From the IMG/VR virus record IMGVR_UViG_3300035682_001613, positions 1 through 34,979 of that record: a stretch of 34,979 nt of DNA, one strand, 5' to 3'. This document shows positions 1-27,600 of this stretch, one piece after another (the stretch's first letter is position 1; every line of letters starts with the position of its first letter). The translations under genes and the position numbers were made by a program. This DNA comes from a virus. The notes beneath the pieces were generated by a model, which ran no database searches, was not told the DNA's origin, and saw only the letters and a list, made by a program, of their open reading frames with translations.

Positions 1-320
1 GTAATTGTATCTAATATAGTTTCTATTTGAGTAAAGTTTACTTCCCATGCTAACTTAGGGTCTTTAGCACAAGCAGGAAAACCTACAATTGCGGCTAATG
101 GAATAATAACATCATGTATTCCTACTTCATGTCTTAATAATCTTTCATTACGAACATCACCATATATAAAATTATATTTTTTATTTGTTGTAAATTGTAA
201 TGGAGAAATTTGATTGAATGATAAGTTATCTATGACAGTAACACTATGTCCTGCGTTTAACATCTTTTCGGTAATTACTGAACCTAAATAACCTGCACCA
301 CCTGTAATTAATATTTTCAT
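1..320 (-). CDS. NAD-dependent epimerase/dehydratase, N-terminal part (truncated by window edge)
   Basis: The start codon is at 320-318 and the frame stays open to base 1, so about 106 N-terminal residues are visible and the C-terminus lies outside the window. The protein begins MKILITGGAGYLGSVI, the glycine-rich GxxGxxG Rossmann motif of the extended short-chain dehydrogenase family (nucleotide-sugar epimerases and dehydratases). An acidic residue follows at the end of beta 2 (VTVIDNLS), as expected for NAD binding, then YGDVRN and PLAAIVG, which match the usual D-V/L and H/P-LAA motifs. The stop of the LamG gene upstream overlaps this start (TAATG), so the two are translationally coupled. 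Placed after several glycosyltransferases, it probably makes or changes a nucleotide sugar used by the cassette. The exact substrate cannot be read from this fragment, and the catalytic YxxxK is not in view. Confidence 0.9.
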   Translation of the reverse strand, partial: MKILITGGAGYLGSVITEKMLNAGHSVTVIDNLSFNQISPLQFTTNKKYNFIYGDVRNERLLRHEVGIHDVIIPLAAIVGFPACAKDPKLAWEVNFTQIETILDTI

Positions 321-1030
321 TATATTAGAGTTTGTTTTATATTTGTAATATCTGCCGTTTCTAATGAGTTTCCTGCTAATAATTTATTTAATTTAATTTG
401 AATTGTTTTATTCATAAATTCTTCAATATATGCAAAATTACCATTACCACTTTTATCCCACACTTTAAATCTATTTACTTTTGTAAAATCTAAATTAGTA
501 ACTATACCTTCATTGTTTGAAACTATAAATTCAGATATTATACCATTAAAATAATATCTTTCATTAGTATCTTTTAAAAATGGATTCATTACACCAATCC
601 ATAGTGGTACATGTGCATAATCGCAGGTTTTATATTTACATTTAACCATTCGTTTTTCACCATTTACTGAAACCAAAAACATACTGATTCCTTCTACATT
701 TTGAATTTGATAAATAACTTTATATTCTTTATCATATTCAAAATCAAATTCTTCAATATGCATATCATCCGAAAAATTACCACTTTCAGGATTTGCAGTA
801 AATAATACACATTTTAATTTATTATTATCAATATAAACCCCACTATTTACTATTCCAGGTTTTGCAAAAATATATTGTTTTTTTCCATTATTTTGTGCAA
901 TAAATGTACAATTTATAATTACAGAATCGTTAAACACCGTTCCCAATAAATTAGGTCGTTTGGATGTATTGTGTTTAGATTCGTTCCATACACTGCAACA
1001 AAAAGTATCTTTAAATTCAAATAGTTCCAT
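320..1030 (-). CDS. Stand-alone LamG-like (concanavalin-type jellyroll) protein
   Basis: This 236-residue protein has no signal peptide and no catalytic domain that I can recognise. It resembles the LamG domain found inside the nearby GT7 proteins: the stretch PLWIGVMNP followed by YYFNGIISEFIVSN matches FYIGVGNP and FYFKGLIAEFAIWN in the gene at 3860-5272. It then has an LDF...VWDKSGNGNFAYIEEF tail, like the DFK...QDLSGNKNNGFIYN tail of those enzymes. The family usually binds carbohydrate or acts as an adhesive module. The start overlaps the stop of the radical SAM gene and the stop overlaps the epimerase start (both TAATG), so it is inside the cassette operon. It may be a free glycan-binding partner of the transferases or a relic of a fourth GT7-LamG gene that lost its catalytic halves. 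Confidence 0.7.
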   Translation of the reverse strand: MELFEFKDTFCCSVWNESKHNTSKRPNLLGTVFNDSVIINCTFIAQNNGKKQYIFAKPGIVNSGVYIDNNKLKCVLFTANPESGNFSDDMHIEEFDFEYDKEYKVIYQIQNVEGISMFLVSVNGEKRMVKCKYKTCDYAHVPLWIGVMNPFLKDTNERYYFNGIISEFIVSNNEGIVTNLDFTKVNRFKVWDKSGNGNFAYIEEFMNKTIQIKLNKLLAGNSLETADITNIKQTLI

Positions 1031-2421
1031 TATTTCATTTCTTTACATTTGTTATAAAAATCAGCCAATTCAGGGAATGTTTTTTCAAAATTAGTTCCCC
1101 TTCTTTTATCATGCTCACTAAAAAATTTATAAAAATCTTTTCTATGTGCCATTCTATCTTCATCATCGATTGATATAAAATAATCATAAATTCGTCTAAT
1201 CTTAACGATTTCAACATCACTAAACCCATAACAATTTACATCATCCCTTAATAATTCATAAAATTCAACTAATTGTGCTTGTTTAAATATTTCGTCCGAC
1301 CATTCTTTATCTAATATTCTAATAGATTGATGGTTTGGATATCTTAAATATGAACTATCTAATAATAATGGTTGTTTATAATATCTTAATGCGTTTGTGT
1401 GTTTTGCTTTTAGTGAATATACATCATCAATTAATTTACGATACGATGGTACTGATAATGCGTTGTATGTACTCATTATATCTACTGTCAGTCTTGGGAT
1501 ATACTGGCATAAATCATCTATTCTATCCATCAATTGATTATATACTAAACCATTTCTAACGTACTCAGCCTGTGTACCATATCCATCACAACTTGTGTAA
1601 ATAATTAATTCTTTAACTAATCCTCGATCGGATATAATTTTAAATTTTTCTCTGAATTTTTTATATAACGAATCGGGTACACCTAAATTTGAATTGATAC
1701 TTAAACATAAATTCTTATTTGGATTTGGAGAATCAATAATATAATCTAATACTTTCATAGTATCTTTATGCATCATAGGTTCACCACCTGTGATTCTAAA
1801 TGTATATAAATCTTGATACAACTCCGGCCACCATTTCCAAAATGCTTCTACATATGGATTAAATTCACTTTGTGGGATTGGTATTCTACCACTACTTACA
1901 AAATGTTCTAATCCATTAAAATTATCAGATGTTGGGTATCCACCATGTTGTTCAATTTCTTCCATCCATTTTGTTGAGAATGGTGGTGCACAATATGAAC
2001 ATTTAAAATTACAAGCATTACTGAATGAAACTTCTACATACGAAGGATTTATATTATCTCTCCAATTACTTTGTTTAATCTTTTCTAAATGTGGAAATGC
2101 CCATGGTTCAGACGATTTAAATGTTCTATCACTAAATTGATTTGAACTATCCTCTACACCCCAACAATAATCACATTCTGCCGGCTTCCCACCTTCTAAC
2201 ATTTCTCTTCTTTTTTGTTTTTTGAAGCGTGTATTATGAAGTGCGGAAGGGTCTCTATTTAATTCAGTTGTTGATACCTGATGTGTCATCGGATGGTGAC
2301 AACTATGATTATGTCCAATATGTAAATGCATTGTTACTTGCATCCATTTTGCTAAACAGAATCCTACTCCTACCGCATTTAATTGTTCTCTTACACTTTC
2401 AAATTTTTCGTAACTAGCCAT
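1030..2421 (-). CDS. Radical SAM protein (twitch/SPASM-like type)
   Basis: The 463-residue protein contains the radical SAM cluster motif CxxxCxxC at residues 137-144 (C137, C141, C144, in SNACNFKCSYC), which binds a [4Fe-4S] cluster and cleaves S-adenosylmethionine. A later FRITGGEPMMHKD is the usual GGEP motif that holds the SAM amino group. Upstream of the core is a Cys/His-rich region: C22, SCHHP around 40-44 and ECDYCWGVE at 82-90. I remember a similar N-terminal arrangement from twitch-domain radical SAM proteins of marine phages, but could not check it. C83 and C86 may help bind an auxiliary cluster. The gene is coupled to its neighbours by TAATG overlaps on both sides and sits among glycosyltransferases and LamG proteins, so it probably modifies a sugar or a peptide side chain in that pathway. 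The actual reaction is unknown. Family assignment is firm, function is not. Confidence 0.9.
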   Translation of the reverse strand: MASYEKFESVREQLNAVGVGFCLAKWMQVTMHLHIGHNHSCHHPMTHQVSTTELNRDPSALHNTRFKKQKRREMLEGGKPAECDYCWGVEDSSNQFSDRTFKSSEPWAFPHLEKIKQSNWRDNINPSYVEVSFSNACNFKCSYCAPPFSTKWMEEIEQHGGYPTSDNFNGLEHFVSSGRIPIPQSEFNPYVEAFWKWWPELYQDLYTFRITGGEPMMHKDTMKVLDYIIDSPNPNKNLCLSINSNLGVPDSLYKKFREKFKIISDRGLVKELIIYTSCDGYGTQAEYVRNGLVYNQLMDRIDDLCQYIPRLTVDIMSTYNALSVPSYRKLIDDVYSLKAKHTNALRYYKQPLLLDSSYLRYPNHQSIRILDKEWSDEIFKQAQLVEFYELLRDDVNCYGFSDVEIVKIRRIYDYFISIDDEDRMAHRKDFYKFFSEHDKRRGTNFEKTFPELADFYNKCKEMK

Positions 2422-3863
2422 TATGCTTTACAATTTATTATTACAGAATTATTACCTATTTCATCTACTGATATGAGTTCGTATTCTAAACTATTCATAC
2501 CATCGTTTTTCCAATTATACTTACCTTGTTGCATTTCTAATATATATCTTCTTTCATTTCTTGCAGTTGTTTCACCCTTTGCCCATTTATCTACACCACC
2601 AACTGTTATTAGACCTTCGGTTTGGTGTGGTAAACATTCAAACTTACCATCTCTACGGAAAGGTAAGATAGTATTATTAACTTTCAAAGTATTTTCTTCT
2701 TTTATTTCAACATCATTTATTTCGCCATGATTTCCGTTATCACTTAAATCGTTTAATACATTTCCATTTATTGAATTAAAATCATAATGTGCCACCATAT
2801 CATTCGGAAATTCCATTATTTCATTTTCTGATAAACATCTATCCCACATCATAACTTTTGCAATATCACCTTTAAACCATCTATTAACCTCATCTACTCC
2901 TACCGATGGTGTTGTTCCAATATAGTATGGTTCTGTTCCATATCTTTTTAAATACCCACTATATTCTAATGGTGATGTTGCACCTGTTCCAAATCTTGCA
3001 TCACTTTTTTTACCATTGATGTGAAGTGAAATTAATTTATTATCATCATCAACTGTCAATGTTACCCAACTCCATTGTTGTTCGTATCTCTTTGCCCATA
3101 GGTATAAAAATTCTCTTTCATTATTCCATAACATAGAAGTAAATGCTCTACTATTATTATACGATATACCCCAATCATGTCCCGGTCTGCGAAGGATTGG
3201 ATATTCACAAAATCTTCTATCTGCATCTCCAATTAAATAAATAGGAACTTTCTCCTCTTGTTGATGTGCTCTTACTAATATTGAAACCGTATGTGAACGT
3301 GAGCATAAATTTCTAATTGAACGAGATGGTTCTATTTTAACATATGATTTTAATCCATCAAAATATCCATACTTTTGGTTGGTTATATCCGGTAAATAAT
3401 GTTGTTCTGCATTACCGGTCAATACACATCTCCAAAAAAGGTCATCATCTTCCATACCCCAATCCCAATAATCGTTTGAGTAACCATTTGTTGCTTCAAC
3501 TTGTTCTTTTGTAAACAATACTGCACCACCAAAATACTCCTCATATTTAAGGTTATAATCTGTTTGAGATATTCTTACTGCTAAATGCTTAGGGTTCTCA
3601 GGATTGAACGTATAATCACAAGAACTATCCTCTGGTACCATATCTATATCATGCCATACAATATAATCACATCCATCATCAAATGCGTGTTTCGCTGCAA
3701 TGTTTTTCATCTTACCTCTATTGAATAACTTATCATCACATTGATGCGCAAAATATATTTTATGTTCAATACCTTGTTCTTCTAAGAATTTATGAACTCT
3801 AGGTGAAAACTCTTTTAAATGAGCTTCTCTATTTCTATATGGTACACATACTCCTAACTTCAT
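2421..3863 (-). CDS. GT7 (beta-1,4-galactosyltransferase-like) enzyme with inserted LamG domain, copy 1
   Basis: This 480-residue protein has the N-terminal catalytic part of the GT7 family: VPYRNREAHL near residue 8, FNRGK at 47-51, the metal-binding DID at 72-74 in HDIDMVP, YFGGAVLF at 110-117 and WDWGMEDDD at 133-141 with the full acidic quartet. The family normally continues within about 30 residues to a metal-binding His and then DGLNSL. Here a domain of roughly 200 residues (about 166-375) with a LamG-type pattern intervenes (YFDG.KSYVKI, then WVTLTV.D, YYIG, FKGDIAKVMMWD). The missing GT7 end then resumes at about 399: CLPH with His 413 in the place of the family's MIRH histidine, ARNERRY at 434-440 and DGMNSL at 454-459. 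It overlaps the next upstream copy by ATGA and the radical SAM gene by TAATG. Probable role: transfer of a hexose from a UDP-sugar to a glycan held by the LamG domain (inference). Confidence 0.85.
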   Translation of the reverse strand: MKLGVCVPYRNREAHLKEFSPRVHKFLEEQGIEHKIYFAHQCDDKLFNRGKMKNIAAKHAFDDGCDYIVWHDIDMVPEDSSCDYTFNPENPKHLAVRISQTDYNLKYEEYFGGAVLFTKEQVEATNGYSNDYWDWGMEDDDLFWRCVLTGNAEQHYLPDITNQKYGYFDGLKSYVKIEPSRSIRNLCSRSHTVSILVRAHQQEEKVPIYLIGDADRRFCEYPILRRPGHDWGISYNNSRAFTSMLWNNEREFLYLWAKRYEQQWSWVTLTVDDDNKLISLHINGKKSDARFGTGATSPLEYSGYLKRYGTEPYYIGTTPSVGVDEVNRWFKGDIAKVMMWDRCLSENEIMEFPNDMVAHYDFNSINGNVLNDLSDNGNHGEINDVEIKEENTLKVNNTILPFRRDGKFECLPHQTEGLITVGGVDKWAKGETTARNERRYILEMQQGKYNWKNDGMNSLEYELISVDEIGNNSVIINCKA

Positions 3864-5272
3864 AGTTTAACTGAAATTTTTATTGCTTTTTCTGAAAGTT
3901 TGTTACTTTCTATTTCTTTATATATGCAGGTGTTTAATCCATCTATTGATAAATCTACTATATTACCTTTCATTTCGTTGTAAAATCTTTCTTGATTTTT
4001 TCTTGTTTCTGAATGTACCCAATTATTCCCAATTGTTGAATTTGAACTATGTTTTAATGTTTTAAATTTTCCTTCTCGTCTAATTGGAACTATAATTTCT
4101 GTTTCAAATTTATCTACCAATATGTTATCTTCACAATTGTAAATAAATCCATTATTTTTATTGCCACTTAAATCTTGTATAATATCACCTTTAAAATTTT
4201 TAAAATCATAATAACATTTTAAGTATTTTGATTTATCATATTTTCTATAATCATTAATTATAGATTTGTATAATGAATTTTCATATATTTCTGTTATGTT
4301 ATCTAATTCTAATGCAATATTCCAAATAGCAAACTCAGCAATTAATCCTTTAAAATAAAATTGTTTAATATCTAATGTAGGATTACCTACACCAATATAA
4401 AAATAATCATTATCATATTCATATATTTGGTCTTTTAGTTCTTTGGTATCAATTAGTTTACCATTCATATAAAAAGAAAATATATCATCTTCTTTTGTAA
4501 TTACTAAATGTGACCATACTTCACCAATGATATCACTTTGAATAGCGGTTGAAATATTATCTTTAGTCCAAATCTCACCTTTGTATCGTTTGAATGATGT
4601 GTATGATATACCTGTGTTTCTACCTGGTATTGAAGTAATCTGATATTCATCAAACTGCTCTTTTAATGAAGTTTTACTATCTTCTGGTTTTACTTTAATT
4701 GATATTGTAAAATCACCATTAAAAATAGATGCTAAATTTTTGTAAGGAATTTTAATATAAGATTCTTTACCATCAAATTTAAAATAATTTATTAGATAGT
4801 TTTTATCGGGTATACCTACTGAAATTTTATCTAATGGTATGTTTCTCTGAATACATCTATATAATAAATCATCATCTTCAAATCCCCACCCCCAATACTC
4901 ATTAGAATATCCATTTACTAATTTGTAATCATGTACATTAAATAAAGTAACTCCACCAAAATAATCGATGAATGGTATATCTTTATTAATTTTAGATACT
5001 AAATGAATTGGTGTATCGGGATAAGAATAATCAACTCCCTTTAAAGGTAACATATCTACATCATGTAATGCAAAATAATCAAAACCTTCTTTAATTGCAA
5101 TCCTAGCTCCTACGTTTAAAAGTTTACCTCTATTAAAAGGCTTATCATCACTCTGTTCTATGACAAAGATTTTATAATCGTAATCCTTTAAATACTCTTG
5201 CATATAAGGAACGAATACTTCTAAATGAGAGGTTCTATCTCTATATGGAACTATTATTGCTAATTTTTGCAT
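3860..5272 (-). CDS. GT7 (beta-1,4-galactosyltransferase-like) enzyme with inserted LamG domain, copy 2
   Basis: This 470-residue paralogue keeps the most complete set of GT7 motifs: VPYRDRTSHLEVF at 8-20, FNRGKLLNVGA at 46-56, DVD at 71-73 in HDVDMLP, FGGVTLF at 105-111 and WGWGFEDDD at 127-135. A LamG-like domain spans about 163-330 (YFKFDGKESYIKIP, DFTISIKV, WSHLVIT, FYMNGKLID, FYIGVGNP, FKGLIAEFAIWN) with a DLSGNKNNG tail. The GT7 C-terminal part returns at about 393 with TLKH (His 408), a NQERF stretch and DGLN at 444-447. By homology it would be a Mn-dependent transferase, most likely using UDP-galactose or a related donor, acting in the cytoplasm of the infected cell. The gene couples to copy 1 by ATGA and to the 73-residue gene upstream by TAATG. 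Confident about the fold and the insertion; donor and acceptor are unknown. Confidence 0.88.
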   Translation of the reverse strand: MQKLAIIVPYRDRTSHLEVFVPYMQEYLKDYDYKIFVIEQSDDKPFNRGKLLNVGARIAIKEGFDYFALHDVDMLPLKGVDYSYPDTPIHLVSKINKDIPFIDYFGGVTLFNVHDYKLVNGYSNEYWGWGFEDDDLLYRCIQRNIPLDKISVGIPDKNYLINYFKFDGKESYIKIPYKNLASIFNGDFTISIKVKPEDSKTSLKEQFDEYQITSIPGRNTGISYTSFKRYKGEIWTKDNISTAIQSDIIGEVWSHLVITKEDDIFSFYMNGKLIDTKELKDQIYEYDNDYFYIGVGNPTLDIKQFYFKGLIAEFAIWNIALELDNITEIYENSLYKSIINDYRKYDKSKYLKCYYDFKNFKGDIIQDLSGNKNNGFIYNCEDNILVDKFETEIIVPIRREGKFKTLKHSSNSTIGNNWVHSETRKNQERFYNEMKGNIVDLSIDGLNTCIYKEIESNKLSEKAIKISVKL

Positions 5273-5493
5273 TAAGCTTCTCTTTCGGACTCTTTATCGG
5301 GTCTTGTTGATGTTCCAACTGCTTTGGTTTTAGCAATATTGTAAAACTCATTCAAATACCATTCTAATCTTGTAGACCATCCTTTGGTATCTAAATCGTA
5401 TAACCAATCACTAATGTCTTGTGTTGAGTGTGCAATACTTTCTAATGCTTTTACACCTCTTTCTTCGGTTGTTAGTTCTTTTTTTTCTGCCAT
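5272..5493 (-). CDS. Small hypothetical protein between GT7-LamG genes
   Basis: This 73-residue protein is soluble and charged, with no signal peptide or membrane segment, and I do not recognise it. It starts MAEKKELTTEERG and is probably mostly helical, with an aromatic patch in the middle (DWLYDL, RLEWYLNEFY) and a charged tail (STRPDKESEREA). Its stop overlaps the start of GT7 copy 2 (TAATG), and 12 A/T-rich bases separate it from the gene upstream, so it is cotranscribed with the transferases. It could be a small partner or chaperone of them, but nothing in the sequence shows this. Tight coupling on both sides and clean reading-frame use support a real gene. Confidence 0.65.
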   Translation of the reverse strand: MAEKKELTTEERGVKALESIAHSTQDISDWLYDLDTKGWSTRLEWYLNEFYNIAKTKAVGTSTRPDKESEREA

Positions 5494-5505
5494 TTTATTT
5501 TGTTT

Positions 5506-5901
5506 TTATTTTAAGAATTTTTTTACTGTTTCAAATGCAATTGCTTCATGTCCTTCTTTCCACACTTTCCATTCTGGAGTTGTTATATGTGTTTCTATTT
5601 CTAATAATCTTGCATCAACTTCACCTAGTCTTGTATATAATTGTTCTAATCCTTTACCAACATTTTCTCTTTCTTGTTGTAAAGAAACTTTTTCATCTTT
5701 TGTATCTAAAAAATTTATTGCGTAATCAAATGTATTAGAACCGTTAAAATGATACATTTTTAATAATGCTTCTATATTAATAATAAGTTTAGGTAAGAAA
5801 AAAGAAAAATCTCCTTTACTTTCTTTCATTACTTCTAATTCTTCCGCAATTGCTTCTAATTGTTTTACAACTAATTCGTTGTTTAATAATTGTTTTATCA
5901 T
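5506..5901 (-). CDS. Hypothetical helical protein, coiled-coil prone
   Basis: This 131-residue protein lies between GT7 copies 2 and 3. It is rich in Glu, Lys and Leu with heptad-like stretches near the N-terminus (KQLEAIAEELEVMKES) and in the second half (LQQERENVGKGLEQLYTRL, then DARLLEIETHI), so coiled coils are likely. No catalytic motif, signal peptide or transmembrane segment is visible. The start codon overlaps the stop of GT7 copy 3 as ATGA (5898-5901), so translation is coupled to that enzyme. Together with the 73-residue protein it splits the GT7 paralogue series, which suggests a cofactor or scaffold role in the same pathway. That is an inference from position only. Confidence 0.7.
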   Translation of the reverse strand: MIKQLLNNELVVKQLEAIAEELEVMKESKGDFSFFLPKLIINIEALLKMYHFNGSNTFDYAINFLDTKDEKVSLQQERENVGKGLEQLYTRLGEVDARLLEIETHITTPEWKVWKEGHEAIAFETVKKFLK

Positions 5902-7379
5902 AAAATTATTTTATACCATTCTGTATTTTTATCAAAGGTTTCTTCTTTTACCAATTTGAATTTTAAATTATTTAATCCTATCTTAGATGTTGAAAACTTT
6001 TTAGTTAATATATCATTAAAAAATATTGTACCATTTTCTATTATATCCGGGTCATATGATTTATATCGTTTAACAATATTGATATCATTGTTATGTGGTA
6101 ATGATTGAAATGTAGCTTCTATTCTTTTTGGAACTGAAATCTTAGTTGTTTTAATAATTTCATCTTTACTAATATATTCTGAATAATTACTACCCTGTGT
6201 ATTATAAATTGTGGCGTGATTGTGATTGATACTACCATCTATTACAAAGTTTTTATAGAAATTATTAAATTGATATTTTAATGTTGGTTCAAATTTTGTT
6301 TGTAACACTTTGTTTTTTACCAATCCATTTAAATAAATGTTTTTAATTTCAGTATCGGTTAGGGTGTAATCAAATATTAATAAATTAGCTAATTTTCCTT
6401 TAAATAAATTTTTACCATGCGAACCGCATCCTATATAAATTTTATCATTTGTATAATCCCACAATGGTAATTTTATATTACTAACCGAATCTATTTTTCT
6501 TTCTTCTAAAAATGTATCAACATATAAACTTAATTTGTTATTATCAAAATCAACATTTGCAACTATATGATGCCATTGGTTTGGTTTTAATTTTTTATAA
6601 TCAAAATAATATTTTTTATCTTTTCCCCAAAAATTAAATCGTAATGTACTATCTGGTTGAATTGAAATACCACTATTGAATCCGGGAAATGAAACTATAT
6701 ATTGTTCATCTTGTATAAAATCGTCAAAATTTACCCATGCTGATATTGTAAATGAATCCGTAGTTATATTTTTTAAAAACTTATTTGGTATTACTTCCAA
6801 TTGAGTTTCGCCATCGAACTTAATATAAGAAACTTTTTCTTTTTTAATTGAATCAGTTATTCTTAATTTTTCTATTTCATATTCATCATCTAATCTTGGG
6901 TAAATATATTCATTATCTAATTTAACACCAGTCTGTTCCATTCTAAATAATAAATCTAAATCTGCATATCCCCAACCATAATACTCATTAGAATAACCAT
7001 TAACTTTTTCAAAATCTTCTTTTGGGAATATTACAACTCCACCTAAATATTGTAAATAAGGTAATGTATTATCATGTACTTGAACTCTTGTTGCTAAATG
7101 TGTTGGATATTGTTTGTAAGAATAATCTGCTTTATCTGATGTAGGTAACATATCAACATCATGGAAGCAAAAATAATCATATTCATCTTTTAGTAAGTGA
7201 AATGCCGAATTACACAACTTTCCATAATTAAATGGTTTACTATCGGATTGTTCAATTACAAATATTTTATAATCAATATTTTTATCTTTTAAAAACGATT
7301 GTATATGTGGCAAGAAAATATCGAGATGCTCTCTCCTATCTCTATATGGAACTACAATAGCTAATTTATGATTACTCAT
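5898..7379 (-). CDS. GT7-like protein with inserted LamG domain, copy 3 (diverged catalytic motifs)
   Basis: This 493-residue paralogue has the same layout as the two others: a GT7 start (VVPYRDRREHLDIF at 9-22, DVD at 74-76, YLGGVVIF at 111-118), a LamG-like domain at about 185-395 (SYIKFDGETQLEVIP, SFTISAWVNF, WHHIVANVDFDNNKLSLYVD, IYIGCGSHGK, FKGKLANLLIFD) and a GT7-type end from about 414 with SLPH (His 429). Several key motifs have changed. FNRGK is FNYGK (50-54). The acidic EDDD after GWG is ADLD (139-142), so the position of the family's essential Glu is Ala. DGLN is IGLN near 467-470. The nucleotide-sugar metal site may remain, but acceptor binding or catalysis may be altered, or the protein may be only a glycan-binding partner. 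It is the first GT7 copy transcribed, with 35 bases separating it from the gene upstream. Confidence 0.82.
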   Translation of the reverse strand: MSNHKLAIVVPYRDRREHLDIFLPHIQSFLKDKNIDYKIFVIEQSDSKPFNYGKLCNSAFHLLKDEYDYFCFHDVDMLPTSDKADYSYKQYPTHLATRVQVHDNTLPYLQYLGGVVIFPKEDFEKVNGYSNEYYGWGYADLDLLFRMEQTGVKLDNEYIYPRLDDEYEIEKLRITDSIKKEKVSYIKFDGETQLEVIPNKFLKNITTDSFTISAWVNFDDFIQDEQYIVSFPGFNSGISIQPDSTLRFNFWGKDKKYYFDYKKLKPNQWHHIVANVDFDNNKLSLYVDTFLEERKIDSVSNIKLPLWDYTNDKIYIGCGSHGKNLFKGKLANLLIFDYTLTDTEIKNIYLNGLVKNKVLQTKFEPTLKYQFNNFYKNFVIDGSINHNHATIYNTQGSNYSEYISKDEIIKTTKISVPKRIEATFQSLPHNNDINIVKRYKSYDPDIIENGTIFFNDILTKKFSTSKIGLNNLKFKLVKEETFDKNTEWYKIIL

Positions 7380-7398
7380 AACTAAATGTAACGAATTT

Positions 7399-7406
7399 TA
7401 TTTATA
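7399..7406 (-). promoter_or_regulatory. Candidate T4-late-type promoter element (TATAAATA)
   Basis: The coding (minus) strand reads TATAAATA here, identical to the -10 consensus of T4 late promoters, 19 nt upstream of the start at 7379 and inside a 35-base intergenic gap. No -35 element is expected for that class. The region is very AT-rich, so a chance match is possible. If real, it would let GT7 copy 3 and the genes after it be transcribed separately from the upstream part of the cassette. Confidence 0.3.
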
Positions 7407-7414
7407 AAACCAAA

Positions 7415-8254
7415 TTAAACTGACTGAATTATTTTGAAGAGTATTCGCCATAAACTATAACCCAATACACCCGCATCTTCAATCATAAATCTCTCATCAT
7501 AAATATCAATTTTAAAATTATTTGATTTTAATGCATCGTACATTATTTGATATTCTTTTGAATAGGCATAATCTTTGTTAATATCTGCCACTGCTTTAAT
7601 TCTATCTATACAAGTTGAATCCCATTTAAAATGATGAACCTGTACATTGTATTGATTAGTTGGTGCAATTAGTGGATGATTCCAACCTTGCCATTTCCAA
7701 GTTGTTTGTCCATCTATTTTTGCATAATGTTGTCCTGGTGTAAGTTCTACCCAACCTTTCATTATACACATTTTATTTGGACATGCATTACTTAATGGAT
7801 AACGAAAACAACCTGCTAATGGAAATTGTTCAAATATGTTTACATCTTCTTTTAGTTCTGAAAATTCACCCTCTCTACCAATTCTGTCTACAAATCCACC
7901 TCTAACCATTACCCAGCCATTCGATTCACATTCATCTATAATTGTATTTAAATTTTTTGAATATACATGAAACTCATCATCATCTGATACTATCCACCAA
8001 TCATCAGGATACATCATTTTTATTTCATTATACAATTTAGTTACATATTCCCAATTGAATTTTTCTTTATAAACTCTTTTTATTATTTTTGCAGTTGGAA
8101 ATTGAGAAACAATATTATTTACTGATTCGTATAAACTTTTTCCTTCCCATTCATATACAACCACATACATTTCATCTACTAAATCTTTATAGTGATTTAA
8201 CATATGTTTTAATGTTGATGTTCTACTACCTGTAACTGTAACTAATCTTTTCAT
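7415..8254 (-). CDS. GT-A fold glycosyltransferase (family 2-like)
   Basis: This 279-residue protein begins MKRLVTVTGSRTSTLKHML, a strand-turn-helix opening seen in GT-A glycosyltransferases, followed by LVDEMYVVVYEWEG and, at 86-98, WWIVSDDDEFHVY. The DDD at 91-93 fits the DxD motif that binds the metal and nucleotide-sugar phosphates. Later segments (WVMVRGGFVDRIG, FRYPLSNACPNKMCIMKGW, HHFKWD) look like an acceptor-side half with a downstream His, as in many GT-A enzymes. There is no LamG insert, unlike the GT7 genes beside it. Its start overlaps the methyltransferase stop (TAATG), and a 35-base gap follows before GT7 copy 3. It probably adds one sugar in the glycan made by this cassette. 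Donor and linkage cannot be told from sequence. Confidence 0.75.
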   Translation of the reverse strand: MKRLVTVTGSRTSTLKHMLNHYKDLVDEMYVVVYEWEGKSLYESVNNIVSQFPTAKIIKRVYKEKFNWEYVTKLYNEIKMMYPDDWWIVSDDDEFHVYSKNLNTIIDECESNGWVMVRGGFVDRIGREGEFSELKEDVNIFEQFPLAGCFRYPLSNACPNKMCIMKGWVELTPGQHYAKIDGQTTWKWQGWNHPLIAPTNQYNVQVHHFKWDSTCIDRIKAVADINKDYAYSKEYQIMYDALKSNNFKIDIYDERFMIEDAGVLGYSLWRILFKIIQSV

Positions 8255-9009
8255 TATTTTTTTCTTACTAACGTTAATCCCGTTGATGCCGGTTTGTTTT
8301 TTTGAATACCAAAGTTAAATAAATCAAACACTTGCCATTTATTCGTATCTATTTCTTTTGCTAATTGTATCGGTCCTTTCCAATCATCAAAATCACCTCT
8401 ATCTTTAACCTCATTTGTCACTATGTATTTATCTGCGTAATTAGGGTCAGTATCGTGAATTGATATAATACCATTCTCACTCATTAATTGAGAATATAAT
8501 TCAAAATCTTCTTTTACATTTTCATAACTATGCCCTGCATCAATATGCAAATAATCAATCTTAATATCATTTAATACAAAGAAATTATGAAATGCATTTG
8601 CCGTTGTATCTGCTATAATTCTAGGTGAAAATAATCTTCTAAAAAAACTTTCTTCATTAAACCAACTTACATTACCACCAATACCATTCATTGCATCTAC
8701 AATATATGTCGTACCAATGTCACCCCAATTTTTATTATCATCCCCTTCAAATATATTTTGTGAATGTAAATCTATTCTAGCCTGTGTCATTATTCTTGGT
8801 ATAAATCCACCACCACTACCTAAACAAACACATACCTTTGCTCTCATATATTGAATTAGGGAATATATAATTAAGCCATCACCCAAATGGTCATCGGTTG
8901 CACCATGACTCCATCTATAAGGAACATTAATTAAAACTTGGTCTCCGTACTCATCTATTTCTTGATTATTAGAAATAAATTCTTTTATGTAATCTTTATT
9001 TGTTATCAT
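8254..9009 (-). CDS. Class I SAM-dependent methyltransferase (Methyltransf_24-like)
   Basis: This 251-residue protein has a glycine-rich SAM-binding loop after a beta strand (VCVCLGSGGGFIPRIM at 59-74) and the typical later motif DYLHIDAGHSYENVKEDFEL at 152-171, followed by the strand-turn ENGIISIHDTD at 178-188. The IDAGHSYE and HDTD elements are characteristic of the Methyltransf_24 group, which often methylates sugars or accompanies glycosyltransferase clusters. The N-terminus includes RWSHGATDDHLGDGLIIYSL. The gene overlaps the SGNH gene by 14 bases upstream and the GT-A gene by TAATG downstream. Inferred role: O-methylation of a sugar in the glycan, for example capping a chain. The acceptor is unknown. 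Confidence 0.8.
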   Translation of the reverse strand: MITNKDYIKEFISNNQEIDEYGDQVLINVPYRWSHGATDDHLGDGLIIYSLIQYMRAKVCVCLGSGGGFIPRIMTQARIDLHSQNIFEGDDNKNWGDIGTTYIVDAMNGIGGNVSWFNEESFFRRLFSPRIIADTTANAFHNFFVLNDIKIDYLHIDAGHSYENVKEDFELYSQLMSENGIISIHDTDPNYADKYIVTNEVKDRGDFDDWKGPIQLAKEIDTNKWQVFDLFNFGIQKNKPASTGLTLVRKK

Positions 9010-9784
9010 TTAATAAATTATTTTTATGATATAAATGTACATTTTGTAATGTATCTTTGTTTATTTTATAAATTGTATTTGGCATTAGTATTGGTTTAAT
9101 TTTATCAATATACCAATGATAATATACAATTGGATTAAAATGTAAATCTGTTTTTGAAATATAAGCCGAGTATAAATTATCTGAATCTTTGTTTAGATAG
9201 TTTTCTAACATTCCATCTAATTTAGAATCATTATTAGTTAAAAAATATTGTTTTATTTTATTTATTTCTGATTCAAACTCTAACTTCATAAAGCTAAAAT
9301 CTTTAGTTACGCTTTGCTGAAAGAAAAAATTAAATGTAATGTTTTTTTCTTTTATAAAATCTGCTAAATCGTTTATATCATTCAATGTTTTTTTAATATG
9401 TTCTAATTTATTTGGAATTGGATTAGTTAAATCAACATAATCATTTTGTAATTCTTTTGTTATCATTTTGGTTTTATCTATTGATAATATATTTCTAAAA
9501 AAATAAGTAAATTGAATTCCACAATATATTGAATCTGCATCAATTCCTTTTTCTAATAATTCTTCAATTTTATTTTTTGTTCTGTCTATTATATAATGAT
9601 TTCCTGCGGATGGTCTACCTAAATAATAAAATTTATATTCTATATTATGTTCTCGATATTCATCTTCTAAAAAATGAAACCAATTTCCATTATCTATATT
9701 AATAATTTGTTCTGGTGTTTTAGTTTTTTTTAATTCATTTGTATAATAACTAAATGAATCCCCCGCTACTATTATGTGTTTCAT
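8996..9784 (-). CDS. SGNH/GDSL-like hydrolase-fold protein
   Basis: The 262-residue protein starts MKHIIVAGDSFSYYTNE, with GDSF at 8-11 as the block I nucleophile motif of SGNH hydrolases. GRPSAGN at 56-62 gives a plausible block II/III oxyanion Gly and Asn. Near the C-terminus, TDLHFNP at 212-218 supplies Asp 213 and His 215; the family usually has DxxH, so the spacing here is one residue shorter. The central part is helical and Lys/Asn-rich. SGNH proteins in glycan clusters commonly add or remove acetyl or other acyl groups on sugars. The gene overlaps the GT-B gene (ATGA) and the methyltransferase gene (14 bases). Fold assignment is likely; whether it is an esterase or an acyltransferase is open. 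Confidence 0.65.
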   Translation of the reverse strand: MKHIIVAGDSFSYYTNELKKTKTPEQIINIDNGNWFHFLEDEYREHNIEYKFYYLGRPSAGNHYIIDRTKNKIEELLEKGIDADSIYCGIQFTYFFRNILSIDKTKMITKELQNDYVDLTNPIPNKLEHIKKTLNDINDLADFIKEKNITFNFFFQQSVTKDFSFMKLEFESEINKIKQYFLTNNDSKLDGMLENYLNKDSDNLYSAYISKTDLHFNPIVYYHWYIDKIKPILMPNTIYKINKDTLQNVHLYHKNNLLNDNK

Positions 9785-10794
9785 TTATTTAAAATATTTG
9801 TAATTTCATATATCCATTCTTCTTTACTACTATATTGTTGCAATGCTTCTTTTAATTTAAAAAAATTATATTGTCTTTCTAATTCAAAATCATTACACAT
9901 TATTTCATACATTTTATTAAATTCCTCTTTTGTATTTGCTCTATATTTGTAATCTATTTTAGGTAACCAAAATTTATTTAGAATTGGAAGTTTACCATAA
10001 TCAATTGCATTAAATATAGAATAACCAAATGGTTCGTTTACATAACATCCGTGAAATACCGTAAAGTCTAAGTTAAAGAAATTTCTGTGGTTTTCCAAAT
10101 TATATGGGTAGAATCTTACTTTTTTCAAATCTAAGTTTAATCCTTCTTTTAAATTTTCATATCCCATCCAATCCGTAATTGCATATCCTGTGTGTTTATC
10201 TAAGAAATGAAAACACTTTCTTGTTTCACTACGAGCAGCATATCCTATTTTATCTGTATTCCAACTATATTCTATATTATGATTAAACTCATAGTAATTT
10301 GGTATCTGAATACATTTCTTTTTAAAATCTTTTTGAACTAATCCATCATTACATCCTATCCAAACTATTTGTTTACATCGATTCATTACATCTTGCTCCC
10401 ATTGTAAATCCATTGTAGTAGGTAAATAAACTCTATCTAATCCTAACTCTATATTAGTATTTATAATTTCTTTGATATACGCGTGGCAAAATATTGTATG
10501 AAATTTATATTTAAACTCCCACAATTCATCTCTACGATAATAGTTGTTGTGTAAAAAATGTATTCTTCTACAATTTCTTAATAGTGGTGGTACTAATAGT
10601 GGTGTTTCTTTTGAAAATACAAATTGACAAGGAATAGATGTCGGGTCAAATCCTATTGGTTTTCTACCATCAATTAATAATACAATTGGATATTTTAAAT
10701 ATGGTACAACATTCTCTAAGAAATTATTTACCCATATATCACTACCACCCATAGGTACATTACCTGCACCTGTCGTAACTAATAAATCAAACAT
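9781..10794 (-). CDS. GT-B fold glycosyltransferase (family 4/1-like)
   Basis: This 337-residue protein opens with MFDLLVTTGAGNVPMGGSDIWVNNFLENV, similar to the donor-independent N-terminal Rossmann half of GT-B enzymes, where GGSxxW...L appears after the first strand. The C-terminal half has NEPFGYSIFNAIDYGKLPIL at 253-272, the E-x7-E-like region that binds the nucleotide sugar in GT4 enzymes. The second acidic residue is replaced: FNAID stands where many have EAMA. FHGCYVNEP just before it is also typical. No membrane segment is seen. It is the first enzyme of the cassette to be transcribed, 11 bases after the 86-residue gene, and its stop overlaps the SGNH gene. It probably acts early in glycan assembly (inference). 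Confidence 0.75.
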   Translation of the reverse strand: MFDLLVTTGAGNVPMGGSDIWVNNFLENVVPYLKYPIVLLIDGRKPIGFDPTSIPCQFVFSKETPLLVPPLLRNCRRIHFLHNNYYRRDELWEFKYKFHTIFCHAYIKEIINTNIELGLDRVYLPTTMDLQWEQDVMNRCKQIVWIGCNDGLVQKDFKKKCIQIPNYYEFNHNIEYSWNTDKIGYAARSETRKCFHFLDKHTGYAITDWMGYENLKEGLNLDLKKVRFYPYNLENHRNFFNLDFTVFHGCYVNEPFGYSIFNAIDYGKLPILNKFWLPKIDYKYRANTKEEFNKMYEIMCNDFELERQYNFFKLKEALQQYSSKEEWIYEITNILNK

Positions 10795-11384: not shown

Positions 11385-14300
11385 TTATGAAATTATCAAT
11401 ATTGATACAAACCTATTATCTGGTGTTTCTACTCCTAAATCCATTGTAAATCCCGTATGAAACATATTACTTATACCTGCCTGTTGAAATTGTGTAGCAC
11501 TATCCGTAGTTCTCATTCCCAAATATACACTATATGTACCTCCACCATTATAGGCACCATATGAATCCATAACTGCTTCCGCAAATGTTACCTGAAATTT
11601 ACCATAACTAATTCTAACTATACTTTCTATATTATATGCGTATGGCCACCAACTACCTTCGTAGCTAGTAAAACCGGTATTTGTATTTGGTTGAAACCAC
11701 CCATATGCTCTAGTTAAATTAAATGACCTTCCATACCCACCGAAGAACCAAGAAGTAAGAAAATTTCCGCCAGCTGCTCTATTTGCAAATGAATATTGTG
11801 CACTTCGGATATATTGTTTTTGTTTAGAACTATGCCAATCCAGTTTATCGGTTGCATTTAATACAACCAAAGTACCACCCATAATACCTGTAACCTCAGT
11901 AACTCCCTGGTCACCCAAATATGGCGGAGGTGAAGCACCATATACCGCAGGGTCATTATACATATACCAACCAGATGGCCTAATTGTTAAATATCTATTT
12001 GTGTCTTGTATAACCTGAAATCCTTGTTGGTTTATATTTGTTTTAGGTACATTAGAAATATATTGTACATTTGTTGCTGGCCAATATGCGTTAATTGTCA
12101 AATTTGCACCATAAGGAATATTATAAACTATATATTGTATTAAAAATCTAACTGCAACACCTGCGGTTAATAATTGGTTAGAAAAATATGCACCTGTTCC
12201 ATCTCTATTATATTGATTACCATATGTACCCGCAGCAAATCCACTTTGTGTTGCGTTAACATCTGCACCTTCAACAGGCCCTTCTATATATTCTCTACCA
12301 TCGTCGTTTATTAATGAATTTCCCGCAGCATCATAAATGTATGCTCTTAATCCTTGATAACCACCACCGCTACCACTACTTCCTAACCCATCATGCTTGG
12401 GAAACCAAGTTGTAAACTCATAGTATCCTGTAATAGTTGGTGTAAACCAAACTTGTTGTGACCATTGCAATGAATATGTGTTAGTTCCCGCATTGTACGT
12501 TACTGCCGTATTACCACCAGATGCTGCACCATTATTATAGTAACTTGTTTGTGCAGCTTGTGCCGGTACTACAATGTTTCCACTATCACTTCCCGAAGTT
12601 GGACTTGGCAGTGTTGGACTTGAATCTATTGTTACTTTATTTTGTCCAGCTCCATCTTTTAATTCAATATATCCAGTATTATATAAAACCGTTCTTCCAT
12701 TATTAGATGTTAAATTTGTAGAATTGATTGTCCACCCACCAACACTGCCCGCCGTTTTTGCTGCACCATTTACATTTGCTGCATCTTGAAATCCGGAGTT
12801 ATTATTTAGTAAACTAATATTTGCGCCTGTTTGTAAAGCCGATGCACCCGCTGCAGCTCCAGTGGCTACTACTGTTGCAGTTGTACCACCTATACTTGCT
12901 GCACCTGCTATTGATAAATTTCCACCCGTAAATGTAAGTTGATTTCCTAATGAAAAATTACTACTATTATCTACATAAAATCCTGTATTTGCATTGCCAA
13001 ATGTTCCAGTACCTATATAAATTTTTTGATTTGCACCATCCAAAGTTATACCATTTTGTCCTACTTTAAAAAGAGAACTAATATATCCAGCATTACCTGC
13101 AAGTACAGGGGATGAAATTGAATTTGATGTTATAAACGTTCCACTTCCCGCCGTCCAATTACCATTTGCTAATAAATTAACGGATGCACTTGCATCTGCT
13201 TTTGCTTGATTTATTGCTGCGGTTTGCGCGGCCGATGCTGCTGCAGAACCTGATGTTACGGCATTAGTTCCAATACCACTTGCAAATAATTCGGCTGCTG
13301 TTCGTGCTGAATTTGCTTTGGTTGTTGCATCACTTGCTGCAGATGCAATAGCGGCTGCCTGTGCTGCATTTGCTTTTGAAGTTGCATCACCCGAAGCAGT
13401 TGATATTGCAGTTGATTGTGCTGCATTTGCTTTTGAAGTTGCATCACCCGAAGCAGTTGATATTGCAGTTGATTGTGCTGTGCTTACATCCGTAGATGTT
13501 GCAGCGTTACCACCCGTAACAGTTATTGCACCATTTATTGTTAAAGTAGTTCCATTCCAAGATAATCCATTCGTACCTGTTCCACTTAAGAAAAAGTTAC
13601 CATTGTTAGCCATATAAGTTTTCCAATCACTTCCATTGTAATATCCTAAAAAAGATGAACCTAAATATAATCCTGCCGTAGAACCAACTAAAACTGTCGG
13701 TGGTCTATTTATTAAACCAGTTGTAGATGTAAATATGTTTGGTGCTAATGAAGTACTAACATTGTTTGCTGCATTTGAACCAGATGTTACTGCATTTGCC
13801 GCTGCTGTCTGAACCGAAGATGTTGTTGCTGCGTTTCCACCTTGAATATTAATTACACCTTGAACTTGTAATGTTCCTAATGAACTATTCCAAGCTAAAA
13901 AATTATCATTTGAACCAGTAAGATAAAAATCACCCTGATTATCCATATATGTTTTCCAACTGCTTCCACTATAATATCCTAAATAAGTTGAACCTAAAAA
14001 TAATCCATTTACCGCCGATGATGTTGTTGGTGTTTTATTTAATTTACCATTTTCATCTGTAAAAATAAATTTCTCTAAATAAGCGGATGCTGAATATACT
14101 GTAACGGATGAATTAGATACTGAACTACTAATATTTGATAATGATGCACTTAATGATGAGGATAAGGTTGATAATGATGCACTTACTGATGAACTTAAAT
14201 TAACTACACTTCCACTTACTACATTAATAGAACTACTCAATGAACCACTTACTAAATTTATAGATGCACTCACCGAGCCACTTAATGTAGATACCGATGC

Positions 14301-24650: not shown

Positions 24651-27600
24651 TTAATCTACTTCCAATATTGGTTCATTATTACCTCTACCTTGTGCAGTTA
24701 CTCTTAATGTGGTTGGATTAGTTATAAATATTTCCACCGGAGATTTACCATCTATTGTAGTAAAAGAACTAGTTACCCCATTTGCTATATAAGATGTATT
24801 TTTACTTCCTCTATAAAATAGATTTTGAGTCCCAGTATGTTTTTCTCCTTTATAAATATAATGAGATGGTAAATATCCACTTGCGGTTTGAATTGCAACA
24901 ATATCTCCATCAATTGTTAATCCTACACTTGTATTAAAATCTTGTACTATTAATTCTTGTGAATATGATGATGTTACCACATTGGTTTCACTACCACTTA
25001 TACCATTTTGATTTAATTGTGTAAGAATAGTATTTTGTTTTGTTACTACAAATGCTCTAATACCTTTTGATTTAAATGTACCATTTTCTTCATAATAATA
25101 TTTACCATATCCATTATCAAAATAAGTATTAAACCCATAATTAATATAATTATCATCCATACCAATAATTTGACCTGCATTGATTAAATCAAGTTCGGTA
25201 GTTATTGTTGCTTCATTTCTTCTATAATCAATTGAAGCGGTATAGGTAGTATATTCTCCACTTGCTATATCTATTATAATATTACCAATTGAAGCGGTAT
25301 AGGTATTATATTCACCATTAAAATTATAAACATTAGATGCCGTTAAAAATACATCATATCCTAAATTTATACCACTAATATTTTCAAGTGAACCAGATAA
25401 ACTTAAATCCGTATTTAACACATCAAACGTACTACTTACTTCCGTTATTGTAGTATCAGTAATTGTTCCTTCATATTGTTCATTAATTGCCGTTGGTTTA
25501 TTTCTTTTAACCTTACTTCTTTCTAAAAAGTGTGGTGCTATTAATAATCCCTGTGTTACTTTTGCTCTTGCCGGCATCATTTCTTTAAGATTAACAAAGA
25601 ATGATTTATCAAAAAATTTAATCAATTTAATAAAATCATAAATGTTTCTATTAGATACTCTTTCAAAATAATATTCTCTAAGTGTATCTAATTCTTTATA
25701 GGTATTTTTATAATCATCTGAAGGGTCACCAATATAATCATCCAAACTTCCACCACCCAATGATTTTGCAATATCTAAATCTAAATCTTTATTAGGTGAG
25801 AAAAATATACCAACTCTATTTGAATCCATTTTAGCGGTTTCAAATGCTTTTTTAGTTGCTCTTTTAGCGGGAGATAAATCACTAATTAATTCTTGTGATT
25901 CAAATCTAATTTTATCATTTGATAATCTATTAGCACCTGTATTTGGTAGAGTAATTGTTACATCTTTATCAATGTATTTGTAGTTCCAATGTTGTGAAGA
26001 ACTACTATTATATTGTGATGCGGTATCAAATCCACTTGCACTTACATCGTTCATATAAGTTGCAATAGGTGCTACGTTTTTAATTTTAGAAATTTCAGAA
26101 CCAGATGGATATAAAGAGTGTGGATATTCAAAATCTAATCTTAATAATAAATCTTCGGTAGAACTTTTCATTGTATTTCCTACAATAACTTCACTACCTA
26201 ATACATGTATATCAAATATAGAAGAACTTAATGCAGTTTTCCATATTCTAACTTCATCCATTTCTCCATTAAAATTACCAAATACAATTTGAGAACCACT
26301 ATTCCATGCCAATGTACCACTGCCCGTTATACTTCCTTGTTTTACAATTCTATCTTTTTCTGCATATCCATAATACGCAGTATACGCACCATTTTCATTA
26401 TTTACTAATATAGAATGAAAATTACCATCAAAAAATGAATATGCGGATGATGATAATACATTTGTTCCATTTACTTTTAATTGTAAACTACCTAATTGTG
26501 TATTAGTAGAACCACTTATAAATAATTTAAAGCCACTACCACTTACCAAATCAACAGATGCTGAATATGCTGGTTTAACTCTAAATTCAATTGATTGGGG
26601 TGACCCACTCCAACTAGATGTTAAATATGAAACAGTATTACCTATATTAAATACTAAAGTAGAACTCAATGTTTCATATGTAAACGTAGAAGGTGCTGCA
26701 TCATCTGCAACAGGTCCACCAAATTCCATTATAGTTAACATTGATTGTGGAATACCATATGAACTCATCAATGCTTTTATACCACGCTTAGACCCTTTAT
26801 GTTTTAATAAATAAGGTAAATTATTTGCAATTCTTCTCCAAATTGTTTTTGTATATTGTTCAGGAGTAATTGTATAATCATCCGCATTATTTAATACACT
26901 AACACCATCCCCATCTTGTCCAAACAAATATCCCCATAGGTTTTTATTTGAATTTAAGTTTTTAGCATCCCAACTAAATGATTCTAAATAGTTATAAAGT
27001 AATTCATCATTAATACCATATGAATTAGTTTCGGTAATCATCCTTTGGTCTGTCATACCTTTAATATAACTCCAAAGAATATCAAAGTGGTTACCCACCA
27101 TATCTAAGAACAATAAGTAATCTGAATTGTTTTCATCTTCACTTATAAATTGTGGAATATTATTTTTTAAAGCATTAAGGTTCATATTATCATAAACCGA
27201 TGCAGAATCCATAGTACCTAAATACCAATTAGTAAGTGTTGTATTTGGATTAGTAATATAAGTTGTACCATCATTACTAAATGCAGTTTCTCCACTTTCT
27301 AAATTAAATCTACCACCAGGAAAGGATTCGTAAGAAGCACTATCTGCAGTAAATACCAATGAACCACTTACTAAACTATTTTCCCAACCATCAAACCCAC
27401 TAACCAATGTAGATAATTTTTCAGAATATTTTGTTACATCCTGTATTACATTAATACTTTGAGTTTGTTCGTTTAAATAACCAATTCTATCCTCATAGTA
27501 TTCTGCTAATTCTTTTTTATATTTAAAGTTTGCTAATCTTTCAACTGCACTACTGTATTTTATAAAATTAGAAAAATTAGAATAATCTATATTAATTCTA

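Follow-up and report, generated by a model that had tools for sequence, protein, structure and literature searches.

A LamG-like domain inserted within the GT7 domain of three paralogous proteins encoded by an uncultured aquatic phage

The closest described relatives of the proteins considered here are the animal beta-1,4-galactosyltransferases of CAZy family GT7, among them B4GALT1 and B4GALT7, and the solved members of this family have an uninterrupted catalytic domain. Among the mobile elements of glycosyltransferase catalysis, the lid of B4GALT1 has been studied well. Passages of PMC6198961 place it at residues 338-365 and describe how its movement repositions Met340 and His343, forming the Mn2+ site. 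Here we analyse three open reading frames (ORFs) encoding GT7 proteins, designated paralogs A, B and C, in the virus record IMGVR_UViG_3300035682_001613, a 34,979-base sequence from an uncultured aquatic phage that we refer to, over its whole length, as the window. In each of these proteins the family's domain is interrupted by 248-263 residues that resemble a LamG domain. We count the interruption as a variant feature, since in 17 homologues that lack the insert the domain is continuous.

The LamG or pentraxin domains of PAPP-A, 4dqa and PTX3 are free-standing or terminal. The lectin domains of the GT27 GalNAc-transferases and of the GT54 enzyme MGAT4A have other folds; they are appended at the C terminus and are not known to interrupt a catalytic domain. 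They resemble the present case in being tied to glycosyltransferase activity or specificity, as sections of two papers describe (PMC4432651, PMC9296478). Putative glycosyltransferases are mentioned for large aquatic phages in parts of PMC12619734, which also cites virion glycosylation by phage enzymes as recorded for Mycobacterium phages. A genomic likeness is found in the host recognition cluster of pelagimyophages, T4-like phages in which glycosyltransferases and radical SAM cassettes lie near tail-fibre genes; unlike the loci studied here, however, LamG, galactosyltransferase and lectin are absent from that paper's text, where GT8 is named as the most represented family (PMC7029224). The first-pass annotation of the window knew of no family with the GT7-LamG arrangement, and we too found no description of it in the open-licence literature. 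What is known, then, is GT7 by sequence, fold and active site, and what appears to be new is the domain insertion.

That annotation had proposed three tandem GT7 transferases with LamG lying mid-domain. Three such ORFs are indeed present (Table 1), each with Pfam matches in the order GT7N, front of GT7C, Laminin_G_3. The tandem placement holds for A and B, which overlap by 4 bases, but not for C and B, which are parted by two small ORFs (5506-5901 and 5272-5493). At the protein level A shares 35% identity with B and 31% with C. The Pfam GT7 matches of the three proteins range in E value from 9e-16 to 6e-25, all above the curated cut-offs (67.5-88 bits against 27 for PF13733; 57.7-69.1 bits against 23 for PF02709), and the human B4GALT1 match of A and B (about 4e-30) covers their first 150 residues. 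With the animal enzymes B shares the DxD, YFGG, W-G-E-D-D, lid His and DGLN motifs. The exact motif strings listed for all three genes were overstated, as they fit B only: A has YRNR, DID, FGGA, WDWGMEDDD and DGMNSL, while C has FNYG, LGGV, YYGWGYADLD and IGLNNL. The C-terminal end of B itself reads DGLNTC, unlike the DGLNSL that had been given.

We next examined the 73-78 residues that follow the LamG domain. If this tail were not GT7, the proteins would be truncated GT7-LamG fusions, and there are observations that point this way: in A, B and C the Glyco_transf_7C profile is matched only at its front (no further than position 64 of 78 in one search and 65 in another), a PDB search with just the C part gives B4GALT1 no better than E 0.02, through the DGLN region, and Foldseek local alignments of B to GT7 structures cover only about 150 columns of the N part. 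A hidden Markov model (HMM) of the C part, however, was compared with the C-ends of 17 insert-free bacterial and viral GT7s, and 16 of them beat the best of 1,020 shuffled decoys (best E 1.8e-9), the remaining one scoring among the decoys. With hhalign, the C part and the C-terminal columns of the insert-free GT7s matched in the same register at 98.3% probability (E 2.5e-14). The alignment also shows what has been displaced. In insert-free GT7s the Trp-loop helix is followed within about 20 residues by G-[YF]-x-x-L-x-[HN], and in A and B the equivalent R-R-x-G-K-F-x-x-L-x-H stretch appears only after LamG. His408 of B, in RREGKFKTLKH, aligns with the lid metal His, a position occupied by His in 9, Asn in 5 and Arg in 1 of 15 aligned insert-free proteins.

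Structure models point in the same direction. AlphaFold2 (AF2) gave a predicted local distance difference test (pLDDT) score of 94.6 and a predicted template modelling (pTM) score of 0.90 for B (90-row alignment), and 92.7 and 0.85 for C (55-row alignment). In VIA comparisons the B model superposed on B4GALT1 (1nf5_B) with Z 27.1 and 1.8 Å over 208 residues, drawn from model range 1..470, and on B4GALT7 (4irq_A) with Z 26.9 and 1.9 Å over 204 residues; the C model superposed on 1tvy_A with Z 28.0 and 1.9 Å over 214 residues, range 1..493. Because Foldseek aligns only the N part, the two-piece structural match rests on VIA. Neither of the two outcomes that the first-pass annotation had named as refuting its view was obtained: in both models the C-terminal residues pack against the N-terminal part, and profile comparison identifies them as GT7. 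The combined evidence (profiles for A, B and C, models for B and C) supports a single predicted GT-A domain, formed by both GT7 pieces, from which LamG is looped out. For A, the C-terminal GT7 assignment is by profile, the AF2 models covering B and C. Together the profile matches and VIA superpositions lead us to reject the tail as a non-GT7 add-on, and we give a truncated fusion next to no credence.

The inserted domain is recognised as LamG by sequence and by predicted fold. All three proteins match PF13385 at 42.2-82.1 bits (cut-off 27.6). In VIA comparisons the B insert resembles the PAPP-A LamG domain (Z 22.6, 3.0 Å, 205 residues), 4dqa, which is the Bacteroides carbohydrate-binding protein BACOVA_03559 (Z 22.4, 2.4 Å, 204 residues), and PTX3 (Z 19.2, 3.1 Å, 190 residues), and the matches of B and C to PAPP-A, 4dqa and pentraxins have Z of 17-22 overall. 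A circularly permuted LamG was considered for the C-terminal D-F ... D-L-S-G-N stretch and dropped, as pentraxins align over the same range.

The position of the insert is of particular interest. On human B4GALT1 (6fwu) the N-part alignment stops at residue 330 and the C-part alignment begins at 346, which, with H408 of B on the lid His, places the insert at about residues 330-335 (numbering inferred from the VIA ranges). Where B4GALT1 runs from 330 into the lid, the phage proteins thus have some 250 additional residues, and since the lid starts at 338, the lectin would be hung at its N-terminal base. In a dimer model discussed in part of PMC6198961, partner-subunit residues 328-334 are suggested to help acceptor binding. 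The first-pass annotation had suggested that LamG would sit near the acceptor side of the active site and could hold an acceptor, and we treat both points as predictions.

The architecture is not peculiar to the window. A first retrieval with B yielded 73 viral loci, or 74 sources with the window included, and 72 of these 74 contain complete N-LamG-C ORFs, 165 in total; the insert is present in every one of the 165 complete ORFs that have both GT7 ends. Adding the loci retrieved with the GT7 part of B brings the number to 364, a count that is not independent because the second retrieval re-fetches many of the same contigs; beside these 364, neither retrieval contained a complete ORF with an N part and no LamG. 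The only broken pairs are two cases in which one ORF covers N and LamG and another encodes the C part. Both come from a single contig retrieved twice (L048:5465-6878, contig identical to L146), in which paralog A has been split, probably by a frameshift. In a partial ORF of L109 the insert is too diverged for the LamG HMM. Since so many contigs show the architecture, for which the first-pass annotation had suggested a metagenomic search, we reject an assembly artefact.

A deeper profile search matched 536 stretches. The best 80 of 524 relatives, from 75 loci, contain 164 N-LamG-C ORFs; in a further 5, among them the window's own three, the N part gives a second, weak match within LamG. Complete insert-free viral ORFs among these best 80 number three (L187, L197 and L207), and one of their three contigs has a LamG elsewhere. 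At least 597 stretches matched in genome contigs; among the matches listed, 17 loci comprise 3 with the full architecture, 13 insert-free and 1 fragment. The full architecture occurs there in a Pelagibacterales metagenome-assembled genome (MAG; L232, two full-length copies), a Fibrobacter MAG (L233) and a bacterium (L234), some of which may be phage contigs in bins. The insert-free bacterial GT7s (L235-L247), like the three viral ones, have contiguous N and C parts and no LamG, and share the DGL-type C-end. Against 50,697 phage records, neither B (E 1e-5) nor A (E 1e-3) found a match, nor did positions 1-25000 of the window by megablast, and the GT7 part of B found only weak ones (Babsiella at E 0.9). 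A plasmid search matched only 31% of B, in 7 Azospirillum replicons. In BFVD, Foldseek found viral proteins with GT7 only and with LamG only; none with both was recognised among the 50 matches listed, many of which are nameless.

We next asked how the three copies arose. A quick tree of the GT7 parts was built from 89 insert-bearing representatives (90 minus one broken ORF) and 17 insert-free sequences. The insert-bearing rows form one side of a branch, requiring one change, with a Shimodaira-Hasegawa-like approximate likelihood ratio test (SH-aLRT) value of 85, and the paralogs form clades of 27 (A), 39 (B) and 23 (C). The same three groups emerge from a quick LamG tree, with support of 97, 91 and 92% and no more changes than the minimum possible. 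Three independent insertions are not favoured, because the GT7 tree needs one change and the LamG tree has the same three groups. Gene order over the 74 loci, where some calls are affected by contig ends, is C-B-A in 29, B-A in 34, C-B in 4, C alone in 3, A alone in 1 and B alone in 1, with none assigned in 2. The simplest history suggested by these sequences would start with a single insertion, after which the gene was triplicated and C was lost from, or never present in, some lineages, and the ancestral insertion followed by duplication that had first been proposed fits the trees.

Are these proteins likely to be enzymes? We take the sites discussed here, and their roles, to be equivalent to bovine D252, D254, Y289, W314, D318 and H347. 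Over 90 representatives (B numbering), D71 is conserved in 85, D73 in 86, Y104 in 85, W129 in 76, E132 in 80, D133 in 88, D135 in 88 and H408 in 82. The window's A, B and C all keep the DxD motif, the D133-type base and the lid His, and D71, D73, D133 and H408 are all intact in 39/39 B representatives, 26/27 of A (the remaining ORF is cut short at its start) and 16/23 of C. Human Tyr285 (bovine Y289) is named for donor specificity in a portion of PMC6198961, and the Tyr at this donor-choice position in 85/90 representatives suggests galactose as the predicted donor.

Taking these results together, we see about an even chance that A, B and C are soluble, lectin-guided GT7 galactosyltransferases that build a phage-encoded glycan, with donor, acceptor and target all predicted. 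In this model, a single ancestral insertion would have put a LamG/pentraxin-like lectin between the Trp-loop helix and the lid, which is the long loop of the catalytic domain. A and B would use Mn2+ and a UDP-sugar to galactosylate a sugar acceptor, LamG would bind the growing glycan or its carrier protein and present the acceptor to the active site, and C, with its changed acceptor site, could form a different linkage or serve as a partner subunit. As LamG is tethered to the catalytic domain by both of its termini, at the foot of the mobile lid, binding could also affect lid closure. A stronger version, in which LamG is a built-in reader of the acceptor or product glycan that switches the enzyme by opening or closing the lid, and in which the three paralogs, with differing LamG domains and one altered catalytic site, act in order to build a defined glycan, is put forward only tentatively, as we doubt it more than we believe it. 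If true, it would mean a glycosyltransferase regulated by a lectin inside its own catalytic domain. With its natural lectin at the lid base, the family would allow one to ask directly whether lid motion can be coupled to recognition of the acceptor, and it might serve as a starting point for galactosyltransferases whose acceptors are selected at will.

Several observations weigh against a lectin-guided galactosyltransferase, and they are best considered alongside the alternatives that they favour. The branch of the single insertion has an SH-aLRT of only 85%, and several insert-free rows sit on long branches. Seven of the 23 C representatives lack D71, D73, D133 or H408, so not every copy can be such an enzyme, and the pair L047/L051 lies on a branch of length 2.5 in the GT7 tree. 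The acceptor region is altered throughout the C group, with R48 replaced by Tyr in 21/23, D134 changed in 23/23 and E132 changed in 10/23. The seven losses and the long branch would fit a dead GT-A fold in proteins that are now lectins or scaffolds. For the family as a whole we regard this as very improbable, as A and B keep the lid His, the D318-type base and both aspartates of DxD at the frequencies given above. The C relatives that have lost such residues (L047, L051, L067, L069, L025, L026 and L050) keep the LamG insertion and therefore may be non-catalytic lectin partners.

Conservation of the LamG domain raises a second difficulty for lectin guidance. Of 1,345 pairs within paralogs, 1,339 show faster divergence in LamG than in GT7. 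Changing ligands would explain this, but so would a relaxation of constraint. In the window's proteins, the LamG positions common to 85% of a group are few (11 in B, 11 in C and 30 in A, the least diverged group). As the less conserved half of each paralog, LamG might be a structural spacer or dimerisation module without a ligand, whose insertion was tolerated; in the homodimer model of PMC6198961, human residues 328-334, which overlap the insert site, lie by the interface according to the section concerned. We consider this unlikely, as the insert is retained in 165/165 complete first-retrieval ORFs despite divergence to a median identity of 24-38% within paralogs, and A retains a set of conserved LamG residues that includes Y-P-I, G, D, N-N-S-R-A, W, Y-x-W-x-K and W.

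We then considered the target of the predicted glycan in the light of the neighbouring genes, which were surveyed by single-linkage clustering over the 74 loci with flanks of at most 6 kb. The radical SAM protein is the most constant partner (Table 1), and several copies stand in a row in L020, L021, L022 and L024. A 337-aa protein without a Pfam match forms a cluster in 37/74 loci, a nucleotide-sugar epimerase-type cluster occurs in 27/74, a tail-fibre cluster in at least 22/74 and a cytidylyltransferase-like gene, whose heptose-adenylyltransferase similarity is below cut-off, in 7. These neighbourhoods delineate a glycan operon, conserved among aquatic phages of which many are T4-like, and we found no description of it. 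The galactosyltransferases could be cytoplasmic enzymes that cooperate with the GT2-like protein, methyltransferase, radical SAM protein and epimerase, and the product would decorate the phage's own fibre or baseplate proteins. Unlike the animal enzymes, the phage proteins start at the catalytic domain and have no membrane anchor or stem. A crude hydropathy scan found no clear transmembrane stretch in the window's operon proteins; the maximum 19-residue Kyte-Doolittle mean is 1.38 for the complete proteins (320-10794), and the cut epimerase reaches 1.81 in its Rossmann start.

The enzymes might instead galactosylate O-antigen or another envelope glycan of the host to block co-infection, with LamG reading the host glycan. 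Parts of PMC7029224 favour host O-chain modification for pelagimyophage glycosyltransferases of a comparable region, many of them in the tail-fibre region, and this too counts against virion decoration. The contig binned with a Pelagibacterales MAG, with its two full-length copies, and the accompanying epimerase-type and cytidylyltransferase-like genes also fit a host target. Among the operon proteins examined we recognised none that would be a membrane protein, a flippase, a polymerase or a lipid-carrier transferase. This only weakens the host-surface alternative, because the survey took in only some neighbours and lipid-linked precursors in the cytoplasm are open to soluble enzymes. As tail-fibre genes adjoin in many loci and no membrane or lipid-carrier step was recognised, we hold the virion to be a slightly more likely target, and host-surface modification to be a serious contender that is nonetheless probably not the answer.

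Table 1. Coordinates of the GT7-LamG paralogs, their parts and other features of the window
Feature	Position	Strand	Evidence
Nucleotide-sugar epimerase/dehydratase, N-terminal part, cut by contig end	1..320	-	cluster of L011:2108-2950 (Epimerase 5.4e-44, phrog_540 1.1e-53)
Standalone LamG-like protein	320..1030	-	C-paralog LamG HMM E 8.3e-7; general LamG HMM 2.4e-5; no Pfam match
Radical SAM protein, NF033640 (twitch domain)	1030..2421	-	4.1e-97; cluster in 68/74 loci
Paralog A, ORF	2421-3863	-	480 aa
A, GT7 C-terminal part, residues 403-480	2424..2657	-	RRDGKFECLPH ... DGMNSL; in C-part alignment matching insert-free GT7 C-ends
A, inserted LamG, residues ~153-402	2658..3407	-	Laminin_G_3 1.1e-10; boundaries approximate (alignment to insert-free GT7)
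A, GT7 N-terminal part, residues 1-152	3408..3863	-	YRNR, FNRG, DID, WDWG-EDDD; Pfam GT7N 1.2e-18, GT7C 2.5e-19; B4GALT1 3.7e-30
Paralog B, ORF	3860-5272	-	470 aa
B, GT7 C-terminal part, residues 398-470	3863..4081	-	RREGKFKTLKH ... DGLNT; packs with N part in AF2 model
B, inserted LamG/pentraxin-like domain, residues ~150-397	4082..4825	-	Laminin_G_3 1.4e-17; fold match PAPP-A LamG, 4dqa, PTX3
B, GT7 N-terminal part, residues 1-149	4826..5272	-	YRDR, FNRG, DVD, YFGGV, WGWG-EDDD; GT7N 1.2e-21, GT7C 1.1e-16; B4GALT1 3.8e-30; AF2
Small conserved ORF, 73 aa, directly upstream of B	5272..5493	-	cluster in 59/74 loci (76-aa ORF)
Paralog C, ORF	5898-7379	-	493 aa
C, GT7 C-terminal part, residues 419-493	5901..6125	-	RIEATFQSLPH ... 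IGLNNL; AF2/VIA one GT-A domain over 1..493
C, inserted LamG, residues ~156-418	6126..6914	-	Laminin_G_3 5.9e-23; PAPP-A LamG Z 21.6
C, GT7 N-terminal part, residues 1-155	6915..7379	-	YRDR, FNYG, DVD, YGWG-ADLD; GT7N 5.5e-25, GT7C 9.3e-16; AF2
GT2-like protein	7415..8254	-	Glyco_tranf_2_4 0.0029, below cut-off; cluster in 65/74 loci
Methyltransferase (Methyltransf_24)	8254..9009	-	3.4e-10; cluster in 64/74 loci
SGNH-like protein by eye (AGDSFS start)	8996-9784		no convincing family match; in 5 operon-set loci
1,461-aa protein close to glycan operon	11385-15770		no confident family match
1,711-aa protein near baseplate gene	24651-29786		weak sub-cut-off LamG match at residues 1057-1188

Comparison of the operon proteins with other collections gave little further detail. 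The epimerase has many sub-cut-off NCBIfam matches, GalE among them. Against the phage records, the radical SAM protein matched two Vibrio phages only (4e-6), and the GT2-like protein and one neighbouring ORF of L044 had no match. A Gp23 capsid gene is present in 11 of 22 longer family-bearing contigs, chosen from the 73 loci, and in 2 of the 3 contigs with an insert-free viral GT7. The window encodes a baseplate wedge protein that is 37-38% identical to those of Flavobacterium phages immuto and Microcystis phage Mel-JY01; in the Mel-JY01 stretch around the baseplate gene no glycosyltransferase is named among 33 features, which are mostly hypothetical.

Finally, the window also carries a LamG outside the paralogs. 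This standalone protein (320-1030) lies downstream of the radical SAM gene, and its nearest inserted LamG is that of C; judged from sequence, it could be a donor or a freed copy of the inserted domain. Similar LamG-only ORFs occur in other loci, for example L025:10298-11134.

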